Virus record (IMG/VR): IMGVR_UViG_3300030107_003706
Span: 7,939 to 40,362 of that record
DNA length: 32,424 bases
Direction: 5' to 3' (one strand)
Source of the DNA: a virus
Each line of letters starts with the position of its first letter. The first letter of the stretch is position 1. The notes beneath the pieces are model-generated. The model saw only the letters and a program-made list of their open reading frames with translations, searched no databases and was not told where the DNA came from. Positions 28,701 to 32,424 of the stretch are shown here, piece after piece. The translations under genes were made by a program, and so were the position numbers.

Positions 28701-30721
28701 CAAAGAAAAGATTTTCAGCTATTAAAGCTAGAAAACGTGGAGAAAATAAAGGTAAGTTTAGATTCTTTATACCACCATCGCACGAAGATTTTGTAGGTTT
28801 ATTATATAACTTTATGGGTAAAGGTAGAAGAGGTGATGCACATAGAGATTTCTTTGAAAAAGCTTTAATACGACCATTAAATAGAGCTTATAGAGAATTA
28901 AACATTACTAAACAAGCTATAGCTAATGATTATAAATCATTAAATAAACGATTTAAAGATGTTAAAGATAAATTAACAAAGAAAACTCCAGATGGTGATT
29001 TTACTTATAATGACGCTATAAGAGTTTATTTGTGGGATAAACATGGTCATAAAATTCCTGGGTTAAGCGAAACAGATCAAAAGAATTTAGTAGATATAGT
29101 TAATAATGATCCGCAATTAAGATCTTATTCTAGGCTTTTAAACGTAATATCTAAACAAGAAAAATATATCGCACCTACAGAAAGCTGGGAAGGTGGAGAT
29201 ATAAGAACAGATTTAGATGATGCGACTGGTAGAGTTGGTAGAGAACAATTTTTTGTTGAGTTTTTTGAAAACGCTGACATAATATTTTCGCCAGAAAATT
29301 TAAATAAAATAGAAGCTGCTTATGGAGCTGACATGGTTAGTGCTTTAAAAGATATATTATATAGAACTAAAACAGGTAGAAATAGACCTAGTGGACAAAA
29401 TAAACTTGTAAATCAATTTTTAAACTATTTAAATGGTTCTGTAGCTTCAACTATGTTTTTTAATATACGTTCTGCTGTACTACAGCAAATGTCTATGGTT
29501 AATTTTATTAATTTTTCTGATAATAATATATTTACCGCAGCTAAAGCTTTTGCAAATCAAAAACAATATTGGACTGATTGGGCTACTATATTTAATTCTG
29601 ACTTCATGAAACAAAGACGTGGTGGGATTAAAACAGATGTTAATGGTGCTGAACTAGCAGCAACTGTTAAAGATGCTAAAAACCCAGTTCAAGCGACAAT
29701 AAAAAAATTATTAGAATTAGGTTTCTTGCCAACACAAATTGGGGATAATATAGCAATTGCTAGTGGTGGTGCTACTTTTTATAGAAACAGAATAAACACA
29801 TACTTAAAACAAGGATTAAGTAAAAAAGAAGCAGAAGCTAAAGCTTGGACTGATTTTGAAATATTAGCAGAAGCTACGCAGCAATCAGCAAGACCTGACA
29901 TGGTTTCTCAACAACAAGCCTCACCGCTTGGTAAAGTTATATTAGCTTTCCAAAATGTAACTTCACAGTTTAATAGACTTGGTAAAAAAGCATTTTTAGA
30001 TCTTAAAAATAGAAGAATAACACCTGGCAATCAAACTCAACTACAAAGCGACATGTCTAACTTATCAAGAATAGCTTATTATCTTGCAATACAAAACTTA
30101 ATATTCTACTCTTTACAATCAGCTTTATTTATGGCGATGTTTGATGACGATGAAGAAGACGAAAGATGGTTAAAGAAGAAGGAAAGAATGGTTAATGGTA
30201 GTATTGATTCTGTATTAAGAGGTACTGGTGTTTGGGGAGCAGCTGTAGCAACACTAAAAAATATGGCGATAAAATGGCATGAACAAAGAGATAAAGGATA
30301 TAACGCGGATGAAAGCGCTGTGTTAATGGAAATGTTAAATGTATCACCTCCACTTGGTATTAAAGCTAGAAAAATAGTAAACGCTGAAAAAACTCTTAAT
30401 TATAATAAGAAAACTATAGAAGAAATGGAAACGTTTGATATTGATAATCCTCAATGGTCAGCTGTAACAAATTATATAGAAGCAACTACAAACGTACCAC
30501 TCAATAGATTATATAATAAAACCCAAAATGTTAGAGAATCTTTAGATAATCAACATAATGCTTTAGAAAGAGTTTTAATGTTTAGTGGTTGGAGCAAATG
30601 GAATCTTGGTATTGAAGATGTTAAAAAATCAAAAAAGAAACAAGATTTTAGCATTAAAGTTAAAAGTAAAAGAATTATTGTTCCTAGAGAAACTAAAAAA
30701 AGAACTATTATTAGAAGATAG
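22784..30721 (+). CDS. Giant internal virion protein with zincin-like and HAD phosphatase domains
   Basis: A 2645-residue polyprotein-like virion protein. Order: N-terminal module (YNNQPITEAKVLELAKAENM) common in large marine phage internal proteins; Gly/Ala-rich hydrophobic helices near 440-460 and 610-650 that may insert in membrane; H862-E-V-L-H866, a zinc-protease HExxH motif, with E923/E924 (AEEFFTALSD) as possible third ligand; conserved helical module near 1096 (FNPEINNDLGGYL); a HAD phosphatase domain about 1780-1940 with motif I D1789-F-D1791-D-T, motif II T1868 (LTARP), motif III K1905 and motif IV D1924-D1925; then a long helical C-terminal region with hydrophobic AYYLAIQNLIFYSLQSALF near 2430-2455. 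Position matches T7 gp16, which enters the cell with the DNA. No lysozyme or transglycosylase motif is evident. Substrates are unknown. Confidence 0.72.
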   Translation: MPKYFYNNQPITEAKVLELAKAENMTFDDFLNSSKDIEVREDDSETNGSTIVEIDISSAPIDQTIDLPQVTKQDVRKTEEDAIKILKKKYGGLGFEFEESGWYGDYITIKAPDTYDNQGNLIEGESKRFDFDVFWSSSKKEANEINEFIAKHANNANVSEGINTNQYANAWGFIDSKAQQVDINDMSSKELVDFSNSILKELDKSKDITGISERIQANMGDFQRKIISDLRKKYDVNTIDGSNSALEEYNKLLNEEFYKRILADEEYQKLKKSNTMAVRSYFGQDIEKIIRDEGELEVMPNWVNKNPVMNNLVKGVWGTANIKLPKSYYEFSGLNQAKKLENIYSEIQKYEAMDPNEKVRYSDYSSDPNLNIANKEYTAGELVELLKRNKGVYEEGIAHNIIKSNEYQEKLSKIKLPKIFEDDGVGLSGEEFWRIIGDQSVQMIGAALSLGGTTLMQEGGGAYAEITTAKAAMKMFPGLDKNQAIQAFKELDMEKQTAAILDLIEKGEGDLNTAFNIGVKNAGLDLIGNFVVIGKAAKFLPKSLGRDFLGERYKDFLKGGWRTVGKDVTIGSFAEVATEIAQEGINIFGVGKSTGENIKDMWTTENGTRLLEAGAQALIATGPIIVGGQAVSTVTKEIATQISAIKNPDHQRNYINLKKKEIDKQFKNGRWTREERDNLFTKLEGYEQSFNFENLDGDGRKDVVNKLTEKAKNDIKINKLEEKIKKQNKEFADAGLDQTTNVIDEIEIKDLKRSNKSINDGIIKEVLASNYRSSGKTLAQWVNEQKEGLFKDKQVITFDNLEQATEYVVKNNIKFNSKKQKQKFLNGEVNGVNLGDTALIVDKVVNKNIKNNKWNSSNTIHHEVLHFILDTIDTKKLQGMIKSTMSKLKNSTDPTMSKVYELTMEQFSQYYFDKNVSDDVLAEEFFTALSDAMQFMKLADLNVENGSVLNDIGKTLQNIFSKNTNASIDFSGLNAENMIEFIKKYNDFNGKGQKYDPIKIKGATDVKEPEVKESIPTLSREEVKQIQERVTEIGLTYNMEGGKKLWDEGGSKAAIEEIKKDGLLDNLIASKYKVRPVPETFVSDVIAQLLPDIRGFNPEINNDLGGYLGSRVNFRAGDVYNKLYKDKGPKKTVRTEEKTKEGEVRVQVAAEKDPTLEAFETEDLSFAGRAKRRAESNKKNQVQYSKLRKAMGVELGSDLYNRVLDGSKKALIRAYETGKPVRQIQRDLKDAANTYIFKTVKNFLGTKTYISNLRKLREPIINSMFTADLVQMEREVADDKKVFTKFVKQLTSKEQVQSAVNQNLLPPSALNTIDRGQAVNLYEKVMPTEEQFVAFFDQPAINPVTGRRSGLKGTRKDQLAKYMANSLSLDAMLQVAKDPDVAQKRQGFAELRGESLAENDLQVLAANIGRDINVKFSEVSNTIDYNLIDNTIKLLKLTKPQAKKFLSVLDTKIDKTKDEYTKSILQELRNNFDLNVELRDTKIADIPFTNIIDTDAIVTDVKKTYMSEIRQIGHDAFVELLQDADLATVTEFVKNVFRSSRSAPGVMTGFTNEILKTEVLDKIQDGRFVDDFVLVTVPNGKAIANKKGEIIELYESIENIKDNVRNNAKLVDKVNKQAEEAQKFIFKILDSNLTRGKKIAMIQLIAYDQRGAVRKASKMGITLNKQSNLTFKSLTLDHEVTINDTVDTLIDYINGKVERTDVENMFDKSFVHVIPNNIDKALTDRGYKSKGGLNRYDNILDLLLEAEKQGVLTLTDELAARAKDDSTVGNIVKESRTSSKTSKGITILDFDDTLATTKSMIRFTRPDGTEGKLNAEQYASTYEDLLGKGYIFNFSEFSEVVGGKPAPLLNKAKKLAGKFGTKDMFILTARPADSAPAIQRFLKANGLNIPLKNITGLGNSTSEAKALWVLDKAQEGYNDFYFADDALQNVQAVQNMLNQVDVKSKIQQAKVKFSKAMSIDFNKILEEITGIESKKRFSAIKARKRGENKGKFRFFIPPSHEDFVGLLYNFMGKGRRGDAHRDFFEKALIRPLNRAYRELNITKQAIANDYKSLNKRFKDVKDKLTKKTPDGDFTYNDAIRVYLWDKHGHKIPGLSETDQKNLVDIVNNDPQLRSYSRLLNVISKQEKYIAPTESWEGGDIRTDLDDATGRVGREQFFVEFFENADIIFSPENLNKIEAAYGADMVSALKDILYRTKTGRNRPSGQNKLVNQFLNYLNGSVASTMFFNIRSAVLQQMSMVNFINFSDNNIFTAAKAFANQKQYWTDWATIFNSDFMKQRRGGIKTDVNGAELAATVKDAKNPVQATIKKLLELGFLPTQIGDNIAIASGGATFYRNRINTYLKQGLSKKEAEAKAWTDFEILAEATQQSARPDMVSQQQASPLGKVILAFQNVTSQFNRLGKKAFLDLKNRRITPGNQTQLQSDMSNLSRIAYYLAIQNLIFYSLQSALFMAMFDDDEEDERWLKKKERMVNGSIDSVLRGTGVWGAAVATLKNMAIKWHEQRDKGYNADESAVLMEMLNVSPPLGIKARKIVNAEKTLNYNKKTIEEMETFDIDNPQWSAVTNYIEATTNVPLNRLYNKTQNVRESLDNQHNALERVLMFSGWSKWNLGIEDVKKSKKKQDFSIKVKSKRIIVPRETKKRTIIRR

Positions 30722-30740
30722 TAAACAATTTAAAAAACAA

Positions 30741-30752
30741 GTGATTATATAA
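30741..30752 (+). promoter_or_regulatory. Putative phage promoter GTGATTATATAA
   Basis: It lies in the 43-base gap between the giant virion gene and the exported-protein gene, 12 bases before the ATG. It differs at one base from the element at 19417-19428. The gap also carries AACAATTTAAAAAA (30724-30737), identical to the leader of the capsid gene at 3127-3140. No hairpin is seen here, which suggests that the shared 12 bases, rather than structure, are the conserved feature. Confidence 0.4.
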
Positions 30753-30764
30753 CAAAATAATGAT

Positions 30765-31856
30765 ATGAAGAAAATAATAATTTTATTATTATTTATATCT
30801 AACTTAGTTAATGCTCAAGTAGACACTAAGATTGATATTGAAGAAATAATAAAAGATAACTTAAAATTCTCTACATTTTACGCGGCGGTCAATGGTGGGA
30901 CATCGTTATCTGATGTTAAAGTATTTTCTGTAAACAATGGGCTGTCAACACAAACCATTTCTACACCATATGATTATAATTTTACAATAGGACTTCGTAA
31001 AATAGCTAGATTTGGCTATGAAAACAAAGCACAAACTTTTTACGATGGTACAGAATCTAACTATAGTGATGCGGCTACGGTTGGTAAAGTAAGAGGTATT
31101 GAATATATGTTCGAAGTAAATATGAAACGTCAAGAGGGTATTGACTACATGGATCAACATCACTTTATACGTTATAGTTCTGATGATGACTGTGAAGATC
31201 CATTATGTGTAAATTATTTTGCTATTAAAGTAGAATATTTACAAGATGGTTTTGCAGATGTAGAATATTTTGAGGCATCACAAAGATATAGATATAAGAA
31301 AACTAGAGACTTATCTTTTAATATTGGAGCTGTGCAAAGACTGTCAGAACCATATGGATATGATCCTTTAGCTGAATGGATGCTACCAAACAACAACTTA
31401 CACTATACTTATCTAGCAATTCAAGAAGGATACACTATAGACGTTCAGAACAGTGAATACTTTGCTCCAGATGGAACTTTAGTAGCAACTAGTCCAGAGG
31501 TTTGGGAAGCAGTTGCAGTTCCAGAGATGTTATCTAATTACGTTACTAAAAAAAGAGATGAATTAGAAAAACTAATACAACATTCGTTAGTTATTGGATT
31601 TGATTACTATAAATATAATAAAAAAACTTGGTTGCACGTTTGGGGTAATTTAATGCCTTGGCATTATAATGATGGTAGTGAATTTTCTTATCATAACTTT
31701 ATAACAGAAGAACAATGGTATGATTACTCGGGAGGATTGATATACGGAATAAAACAAAATAGAAACTTAGGGTATTTTGTTGAAGGAAAATATAATAAAT
31801 ACTGGAATAGAGAATGGTATGATTTCAAATTTGGAGTTAATTACACAATATTTTAA
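30765..31856 (+). CDS. Exported probable outer-membrane beta-barrel protein
   Basis: A 363-residue protein with a clear Sec signal peptide: K2-K3, hydrophobic residues 4-15, probable cleavage between A17 and Q18. The mature part is rich in Tyr, Asp and alternating hydrophobic residues in short strands (YNFTIGLRKIARFGYE, GFADVEYFEASQRYRYKK, LSFNIGAVQRL), with 10-14 residue strands near the C-terminus (LGYFVEGKYNKYW, YDFKFGVNYTIF). It ends in Phe, the usual terminal residue of outer-membrane barrels recognised by BamA. It has one CEDPLC pair. I do not recognise a family. A phage product made late and placed in the host outer membrane could block superinfection by masking a receptor, or aid lysis. 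A periplasmic or surface location other than the membrane cannot be excluded. The start at 30765 follows an A/T-rich leader. Confidence 0.62.
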   Translation: MKKIIILLLFISNLVNAQVDTKIDIEEIIKDNLKFSTFYAAVNGGTSLSDVKVFSVNNGLSTQTISTPYDYNFTIGLRKIARFGYENKAQTFYDGTESNYSDAATVGKVRGIEYMFEVNMKRQEGIDYMDQHHFIRYSSDDDCEDPLCVNYFAIKVEYLQDGFADVEYFEASQRYRYKKTRDLSFNIGAVQRLSEPYGYDPLAEWMLPNNNLHYTYLAIQEGYTIDVQNSEYFAPDGTLVATSPEVWEAVAVPEMLSNYVTKKRDELEKLIQHSLVIGFDYYKYNKKTWLHVWGNLMPWHYNDGSEFSYHNFITEEQWYDYSGGLIYGIKQNRNLGYFVEGKYNKYWNREWYDFKFGVNYTIF

Positions 31857-31860
31857 ATAA

Positions 31861-32139
31861 ATGGCAAAAGAATTAAATGAAGATACAGGTTTTAATATAA
31901 GCATTAAAACTTTATTAGGAATAGGGGCAGCAATGGCAACAGTAATTAGTATGTGGTTTATGTTACAAGCAGACATAGCAGACGCTAAAGAATTACCAGC
32001 GCCACCCGATCCAGAGGTTACAAGAATGGAGTTTGATATGAAAGATCAAATGATTAGACAAACTATCATGACAACTCAAGAAGATGTAAAAGAAATAAAA
32101 AAATCTATTGAAAAAATAGAAGATAAACTTTACGAATAA
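31861..32139 (+). CDS. Small one-helix membrane protein, holin- or spanin-like
   Basis: A 92-residue protein starting 4 bases after the previous stop. A charged N-terminal stretch (1-12) precedes one hydrophobic helix (about 17-36, TLLGIGAAMATVISMWFMLQ). A short linker with a Pro-rich piece (LPAPPDPEVTR) leads to a charged amphipathic helix or coiled coil (about 58-90, ending IEKIEDKLYE). One transmembrane segment with a soluble coiled coil fits either a type-II/III holin or an inner-membrane spanin subunit. No lysozyme or amidase gene lies in the window to confirm a lysis cassette. It is flanked by two exported proteins, suggesting a module acting on the envelope. The lysis call is from topology and context. 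Confidence 0.5.
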   Translation: MAKELNEDTGFNISIKTLLGIGAAMATVISMWFMLQADIADAKELPAPPDPEVTRMEFDMKDQMIRQTIMTTQEDVKEIKKSIEKIEDKLYE

Positions 32140-32149
32140 ATTTAATAAA

Positions 32150-32424
32150 ATGAAAAATCCAATATGGAAAATATTTGCAACCTATTTGTTTGTGCTGCTT
32201 TTATTGTTGGTTTATGGCACTGCATATTCTCAAATAGAGATCAAACAATTTAACGCTGGTTGGAATAGCGCTAATGACGTTTCTTGGGTGCAAAATCTAT
32301 CTGACTGTGAAACTATTAGTTATACTGATATAGGGACAGATAAAGAAGCACAGAAAAAATATAAAATAGCAGTTGTACCCACTATTATTATATTTAAAGA
32401 TGGTGAAGAAGTTAGTAGATTTCA
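32150..32424 (+). CDS. Exported thioredoxin-fold protein lacking CXXC, 3' end outside the window
   Basis: The gene begins at the ATG at 32150, 10 bases after the previous stop, and is open to the window edge (91 codons seen). Residues 1-27 form a Sec signal peptide with a long Leu/Val core and probable cleavage between S27 and Q28. The mature sequence has a thioredoxin-like layout: strand IEIKQFNAGW, a helix, strand ISYTDIGTD, helix EAQKKYKIA, then V75-V-P77-T with strand IIIFKDG, where P77 fits the cis-Pro. After W38, where active thioredoxins have C-G-P-C, it has N-S-A-N, and the only Cys is C53. It is therefore unlikely to be a redox enzyme and may be a binding protein. The C-terminus is unseen. 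Confidence 0.65.
   Translation, partial: MKNPIWKIFATYLFVLLLLLVYGTAYSQIEIKQFNAGWNSANDVSWVQNLSDCETISYTDIGTDKEAQKKYKIAVVPTIIIFKDGEEVSRF

Follow-up and report, generated by a model that had tools for sequence, protein, structure and literature searches.

A four-gene module of marine Bacteroidota phages that may display a large, exchangeable-headed protein on the infected cell through the host type IX secretion system

Three small genes close the 32,424-nucleotide stretch analysed here (the window; bases 7939-40362 of the 40,362-base virus record IMGVR_UViG_3300030107_003706), and they appear to be part of a module of four genes that is carried by otherwise unrelated viruses of marine Bacteroidota. 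On balance, we favour the reading that this module makes the infected Bacteroidota cell display a large protein on its surface, with the trio in the window as the envelope part of the module. Because the window extends to the last base of the record, the virus record stops there as well, and the fourth gene lies just past the window end in relatives, where it encodes a large, exported Cys-repeat protein, hereafter the cargo. The portal protein of the window has its kin in Flavobacterium elemo phages, Cellulophaga phages and Maribacter phage Panino.

An earlier note on this DNA had described three adjacent open reading frames no more than 10 bases apart, all with envelope-directed products, and both observations were confirmed. 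The genes for a barrel protein (30765-31856), a one-helix membrane protein (31861-32139) and a thioredoxin-like (Trx-like) protein (32150-32424) follow one another on the + strand with gaps of 4 and 10 bases, and each product bears an export or membrane signal. The barrel frame starts 43 bases past the end of a giant virion gene (2645 aa) of the virion region. Ka is far below Ks for the barrel gene (0.095-0.158 vs 1.04-2.3) and for the helix gene (0.081-0.224 vs 0.67-1.98) in six comparisons with the window, and the same is true of the barrel, helix and Trx genes in four pairs of relatives; the three window genes are real and are under purifying selection. The promoter formerly placed upstream of the barrel gene was not substantiated, since sigma-70-like sites are not clearly more frequent than in shuffled sequences (16 vs 10.8 +/- 3.5) and the Bacteroidota-type pattern, TTTG/TAnnTTTG, has no matching pair in 30601-30765. 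Two overlapping sigma-70-like sites at 30749-30789 straddle the barrel start codon.

The 363-aa product of the first gene is supported as an outer-membrane barrel by its signal peptide and by a model with an even number of strands and a barrel fold. The signal peptide (30765-30815, + strand) is predicted to be cut before Gln18, that is, after MKKIIILLLFISNLVNA and before Q, which follows the Q-rule of Bacteroidetes signal peptides as given in the accessible part of PMC5837995. The protein ends in ...NYTIF, and its earlier description as exported, barrel-like and Phe-ended holds; the signal-peptide and barrel predictions that the earlier note had proposed both came out positive. An AlphaFold2 model built with 24 diverse relatives has 12 long strands (pLDDT 68.6). 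Strands 7 and 8 are separated by a conserved insert of 75 residues, which, if the strand count is right, would lie on the outer face or plug the pore. The solved structures that match the model best are outer-membrane barrels, namely Tsx (Z 13.8, rmsd 4.3, 205 residues aligned), KdgM (Z 13.7), NanC (13.1) and NalP (13.1).

Among 212 distinct relatives, simple patterns assign the barrel signal to SPI with Q in 110 cases, to a lipoprotein type in which a Cys-rich stretch precedes Q in 74, and to other types in 24, which by eye are mostly SPI signals before Q, while 4 are open. The last residue of the 208 complete barrels is usually aromatic (173 F, 4 Y), the others ending in R (19), L (7) or I (5). 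Similarly, the C-ends in a 24-member alignment are mostly NY.IF/R/L, and mean column identity there is 66%. Pfam gave no match to the barrel at E ≤ 1 and PHROGs gave none, and an IMG/VR scan returned 411 relatives. A viral BFVD entry of 342 aa, A0A516LKJ4, matches the barrel model (E 2e-19, 21% identity), so the family is probably wider than the loci studied here. No barrel or helix-protein relative from an isolate phage was found among 50,697 phage records, and elemoE, Panino and ctfjg026 have no profile match to the module proteins. One pattern-limited scan of bacterial genome contigs revealed no cellular source of the barrel, its 3 matches being what we take to be phage contigs in MAGs.

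The second product is a 92-aa protein with a predicted topology in which one membrane helix is joined by a Pro-rich linker to a charged C-terminal helix. It is the best conserved of the three, with a mean column identity of 72% over 27 members, and at least 551 relatives were found in the IMG/VR scan. Pfam has nothing for this protein and its PHROGs matches are weak (E ≥ 0.034). Of its former description as a single-helix, holin- or spanin-like protein, the single hydrophobic segment stands. For the likeness, the best Rz-like PHROG match has an E of 0.11, in at most 3 of the 27 members, and the best holin match one of 0.12.

The third product, open at 91 aa because it is cut by the contig end, had been called an exported thioredoxin-fold protein. 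Export is upheld by an N-terminal segment ending ...AYS before Q. The truncated window copy has a weak PF00085 match (E 0.0016), so that the fold may be that of thioredoxin; the redox motif is replaced, N-S-A-N (32264-32275, + strand) standing where thioredoxin has CxxC. PF00085 recognises each of the 36 proteins in the family alignment at E ≤ 0.1, the lowest E being 4.1e-7, and the match centres on the cis-Pro half; most relatives are 100-125 aa long. By pattern, NxxN replaces CxxC in 165 of 179 distinct copies, and an active-site CxxC is found in none of 184; five CxxC pattern matches, all of which were read, fall within the signal peptide. A role as a redox enzyme was therefore rejected. 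The protein thus resembles thioredoxin in the sequence of its cis-Pro half and differs from it in being exported and in carrying NxxN for CxxC. Its structure model, like that of the barrel, is of middling confidence (pLDDT 71.6). The Foldseek matches shown for it are nearly all thioredoxins, but with E ≥ 0.014 and TM about 0.3, and VIA-align gave a Z of 3.4 at best. Mean column identity in its alignment is 54%, below that of the two other proteins, and a scan with a divergent Trx query yielded 5 loci.

To survey the neighbourhood of these genes, the best 80 of the 411 barrel relatives and the best 80 of the at least 551 helix-protein relatives were kept, and 349 loci were pooled into 212 distinct barrels, those whose barrel-frame DNA is identical over its final 900 bases being counted once; loci L160-L163 and L246-L267 stand outside this survey. 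Loci were called well flanked if they had at least 5-6 kb on each side, which for the barrel loci means at least 5 kb upstream and at least 6 kb downstream. The four genes share one strand at every distinct barrel locus that is well flanked (69 of 69), and the other three accompany the helix gene at 91 of 91 distinct well-flanked loci, in a sample that leans to closer relatives because the loci were fetched by barrel or helix-gene similarity. Conservation of the three genes together, the survey of related phages that the earlier note had called for, was thus observed. With contig ends included, the 212 barrels are accompanied by the helix gene in 202 cases, by Trx in 195, by the cargo in 166 and by all of them in 160.

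Only three gene orders occur at these 160 loci: barrel-helix-Trx-cargo (96), cargo-barrel-helix-Trx (45) and helix-Trx-cargo-barrel (19), all of them cyclic permutations of a single circular arrangement. The closest relative of the window (L001, barrel 98% identical) has the order barrel, a 159-aa open reading frame, helix, Trx, a 102-aa open reading frame and then the start of a cargo that is cut by the contig end. PHROGs offered nothing useful on seven module proteins.

The module sits on unrelated virion backbones, since portals differ between its carriers and a homolog of the giant virion gene of the window is present at only 39 of the 69 well-flanked barrel loci. A T4-type portal is present in 5 (134-231 kb) of 25 contigs tested and the phrog_6547 portal of the window type in 9; no contig has both, and 11 have neither. 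Several other genes were noticed on the module-bearing contigs. A small open reading frame that by eye resembles a staphylococcal-type nuclease (VxDGDTIDAxIDLGF) occurs inside or beside the module (L092 10107-10475, L158 5638-5997, G010 39403-39771), and one module-bearing phage encodes a tail ring protein that matches the crAss-phage ring model PF25702 (L065 14831-15529, E 1.4e-34). Outside the window, at G000:201-1215 (L387), its contig encodes part of a GroEL-like protein (PF00118, E 1.5e-24) and, after it, a GroES-like one (PF00166, E 6.5e-8); by eye a fuller pair is present at G010 67779-69588.

The cargo has the features of a protein secreted by the host. Complete cargos (n=138) have open frames of 530-1584 aa, and most of those listed begin with a Sec signal of the form MKK..LLLLLP..FAQ/FGQ/FSQ. 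They contain 5-33 pattern matches (median 11.5) to the repeat GC(T/M)D...NYxPxA...C; later counts rely on this pattern, three or four rows of a first crude listing (L142, L150, L158, L018) having been a capsid or fibre gene. The N-termini of three cargos (L017, L090, L131) carry a lipoprotein cassette, ..SC(A/S)xxKKCC(S/A)Q, which is the same as that on the barrels of many loci, as if signal peptides had been exchanged between module genes. At the C-terminus, the type A sorting domain of the type IX secretion system (T9SS) was found above cut-off in 7 of 9 cargos tested with TIGR04183 and in 6 of 9 with PF18962; the type B tail TIGR04131 was absent from the tested cargos. The remaining two (L023 and L065) match neither model and end in a second tail, 'TDLLGRP...LLFYIYxDGTVERKLIK', which in these two cargos has no match to a Pfam sorting domain or an NCBIfam model.

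Both tails look like host secretion tails, because Flavobacteriales genomes carry both many times. Of 31 genomes that are relatives of a Flavobacteriales MAG, 21 carry the second tail, at 7-51 copies each, and at 4 of 6 loci read it forms the C-terminus of host open reading frames (5 in all), some with clear signal peptides. Furthermore, all 21 genomes searched around one second-tail genome have TIGR04183 matches (29-142 each). In the 131 sets in which all four genes are complete, the two tails split 64/67 with none unassigned, a count for which the tail models were partly built from the same loci. As the sorting tail is of the type found on host-secreted proteins, the host T9SS should carry the cargo across the outer membrane, and the PorV and PorP/SprF families are present in both MAGs that hold module contigs. 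About 30% of the pairs whose barrels are 85-95% identical differ in tail type, and since tails swap between such close barrels, the idea that the barrel strictly reads the cargo tail is unsupported. Tail types of nearest neighbours agree at 0.86 for the barrel, 0.86 for Trx and 0.82 for the helix protein vs 0.50 when shuffled, a concordance that relatedness alone can give. The barrel may instead bind the conserved stalk of the cargo.

At the other end of the cargo, close relatives differ by a swapped head while sharing the remainder. Across the 511 pairs of complete sets whose barrels are 85-100% identical, median identities are 89.4 for the barrel, 78.9 for the helix protein, 75.0 for Trx and 70.4 for the last 230 residues of the cargo, vs 25.5 for its first 220 residues. 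These first 220 residues are less than 50% identical in 67% of the pairs, and neither the helix protein nor Trx is in any (0% each). A MAM domain characterises one of the head families (PF00629; L007, E 2.4e-23). The pattern is that of a putative recognition domain exchanged on a fixed apparatus.

From these features the following course of events can be proposed. The cargo, consisting of a Sec signal, a variable head, a repeat stalk and a host sorting tail, would cross the outer membrane via the host type IX system, as its sequence strongly suggests, and the 363-aa outer-membrane barrel would go with it, to which both model and signals point. The inner-membrane helix protein, the periplasmic redox-dead Trx and the barrel would together form a complex across the envelope and serve to fold, carry or anchor the cargo, by analogy with SprF/PorP-type barrels, which serve their own cargo. 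Synthesis would be late, with the virion proteins, and the displayed head would bind something outside the cell; blocking the adsorption of competing or progeny phage seems the likeliest use and adhesion to other cells the next. Points against display include the barrel signal type, which varies between SPI and lipoprotein, the lack of a cargo in the window, the swapping of tails between close barrels and the differences from known carriers given below. A narrower version is possible, though we hold it only tentatively: the module would be a phage-borne T9SS accessory apparatus, a new-family carrier or anchor (12-strand barrel, inner-membrane helix, redox-dead periplasmic Trx) that is passed on as a single unit among unrelated Bacteroidota phages and, via the host translocon, displays a protein with an exchangeable head resembling a tail-fibre tip, most likely keeping competing phages off.

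PorV, a larger barrel of the FadL kind, is a host gene product from which the module barrel is set apart by description. It would be the expected host carrier for type A cargo, and in F. johnsoniae such cargo uses PorV with no private barrel, according to the available part of PMC12618676. The same portion of that paper describes a T9SS type B cargo whose carrier barrel is encoded directly downstream and on which it relies, and the reliance of cargo on a cognate carrier is also reported in the accessible text of PMC9143113. The module resembles this SprB-SprF arrangement in combining a large surface adhesin that bears a C-terminal T9SS signal with a barrel directly downstream; here no more than 40 nt separate the cargo stop from the beginning of the barrel open frame at 52 of 212 loci, and the two overlap by 4 bases at L157, L158 and L138. 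In contrast to PorP/SprF systems, it has type A or second host tails rather than TIGR04131, two extra conserved envelope genes, and a barrel without detectable homology to that family (PF11751), which was rejected at an hhalign probability of 8% against 8 PorP/SprF proteins. The C-terminal Cys-X-Cys that ties SprF to GldK in the accessible part of PMC12635249 is absent from the 24-member barrel alignment. The barrel may thus work like a carrier or anchor without belonging to the PorP/SprF family.

Superinfection exclusion is compatible with a surface protein, and the barrel itself could account for it by inserting late in the outer membrane and blocking or replacing the phage receptor, with the helix protein and Trx helping barrel assembly and the cargo as a separate coat. 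An outer-membrane barrel with an export signal would suit this task, and the variation of the cargo head looks like a fit to different partners, but a lone barrel would need no strict four-gene linkage, and the module lies among late structural genes in G010 and the window lineage, whereas exclusion genes are often early. We regard this account as unlikely. It would be in line with Cryophage, for whose phage-encoded T9SS cargo, 'a unique occurrence', superinfection exclusion is among the roles suggested in the available part of PMC7468147.

The cargo might also be set free as a secreted enzyme or binding protein related to nutrients or polysaccharides, the trio being its chaperones. T9SS clients can be released and some heads belong to a MAM domain family, but none of 10 cargos scanned with Pfam or NCBIfam has a catalytic domain, and we consider release rather improbable. 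Still less probable is that the module proteins are structural parts of the virion; their late-operon position between the giant gene and fibre-like genes would fit such a role, whereas Sec or lipoprotein signals, the barrel model and the occurrence of the module away from that context in other phages argue against it.

The earlier note had further considered a lysis system, remarking that the window has no endolysin. The remark is true, but the window lacks one simply because the contig stops there, and related contigs have one 3-11 kb downstream. An M15 peptidase is present in 24 of 40 related contigs, and M15 endolysins were located at this distance from the barrel in L065, L007 and G010. 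In addition, a GTA-type holin-like gene with three transmembrane segments is present in 20 of the 40, only 3 of which are above the family cut-off, and the window's own contig has a holin-like gene upstream (G000:2613-2999, PF11351, E 4.7e-4, below cut-off). With these genes elsewhere, the lysis reading is unsupported, and the broader view of the trio as an envelope-directed set of undescribed function is sustained. A spanin-like complex, in which the two membranes would be joined by the helix protein and an outer-membrane (lipo)protein once the endolysin has acted, is highly improbable, for although an inner-membrane protein with one helix and a charged helical C-end stands beside an outer-membrane partner, as in Rz/Rz1, and 74 of 212 barrels score by pattern as lipoproteins, that partner is a large 363-aa barrel that is not beside the endolysin, the Rz-like matches are poor, and the link to a T9SS cargo is obligatory. 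Just past the endolysin, on the opposite strand and by eye beside ribonucleotide-reductase-like genes, lies a second, small exported protein (132-138 aa where complete) that by eye resembles a small outer-membrane barrel (L246-L249, that is, G010 50724-51140, minus strand); similar small exported open reading frames are found at L006 16861-17070 and L039 15408-15806, and the G010 and L006 copies end in ...SYKF.

Single phage T9SS cargo genes are already in print, and the four-gene module was not found in the literature searched. Besides that of Cryophage, T9SS sorting domains have been noted near BACON proteins in a cluster of BACON-repeat phages (available part of PMC6949934). These phages resemble the carriers of the module in having genes with a T9SS sorting domain, which in Cryophage vary between close phages, and differ from them in that the genes are single cargo genes (an endoglucanase, GH39 and a PA14 domain in Cryophage), with no barrel, helix or Trx partner mentioned in the accessible parts of the two papers. 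A search for a phage module with a barrel, a helix protein and a redox-dead Trx gave no hit in literature whose coverage excludes most subscription papers and preprints.

To conclude, if the display reading is true, marine Bacteroidota phages would, besides lysing their hosts, dress the cell surface with a viral protein late in infection by means of the phylum's own secretion system and dedicated helpers. The barrel could then represent a third kind of T9SS carrier, and the module would be a testable means by which, in the ocean, superinfection is excluded or cells are made to adhere. A function would also be gained for families that have no confident match in Pfam or PHROGs although they are present in hundreds of viral contigs, with 411 relatives of the barrel and at least 551 of the helix protein.
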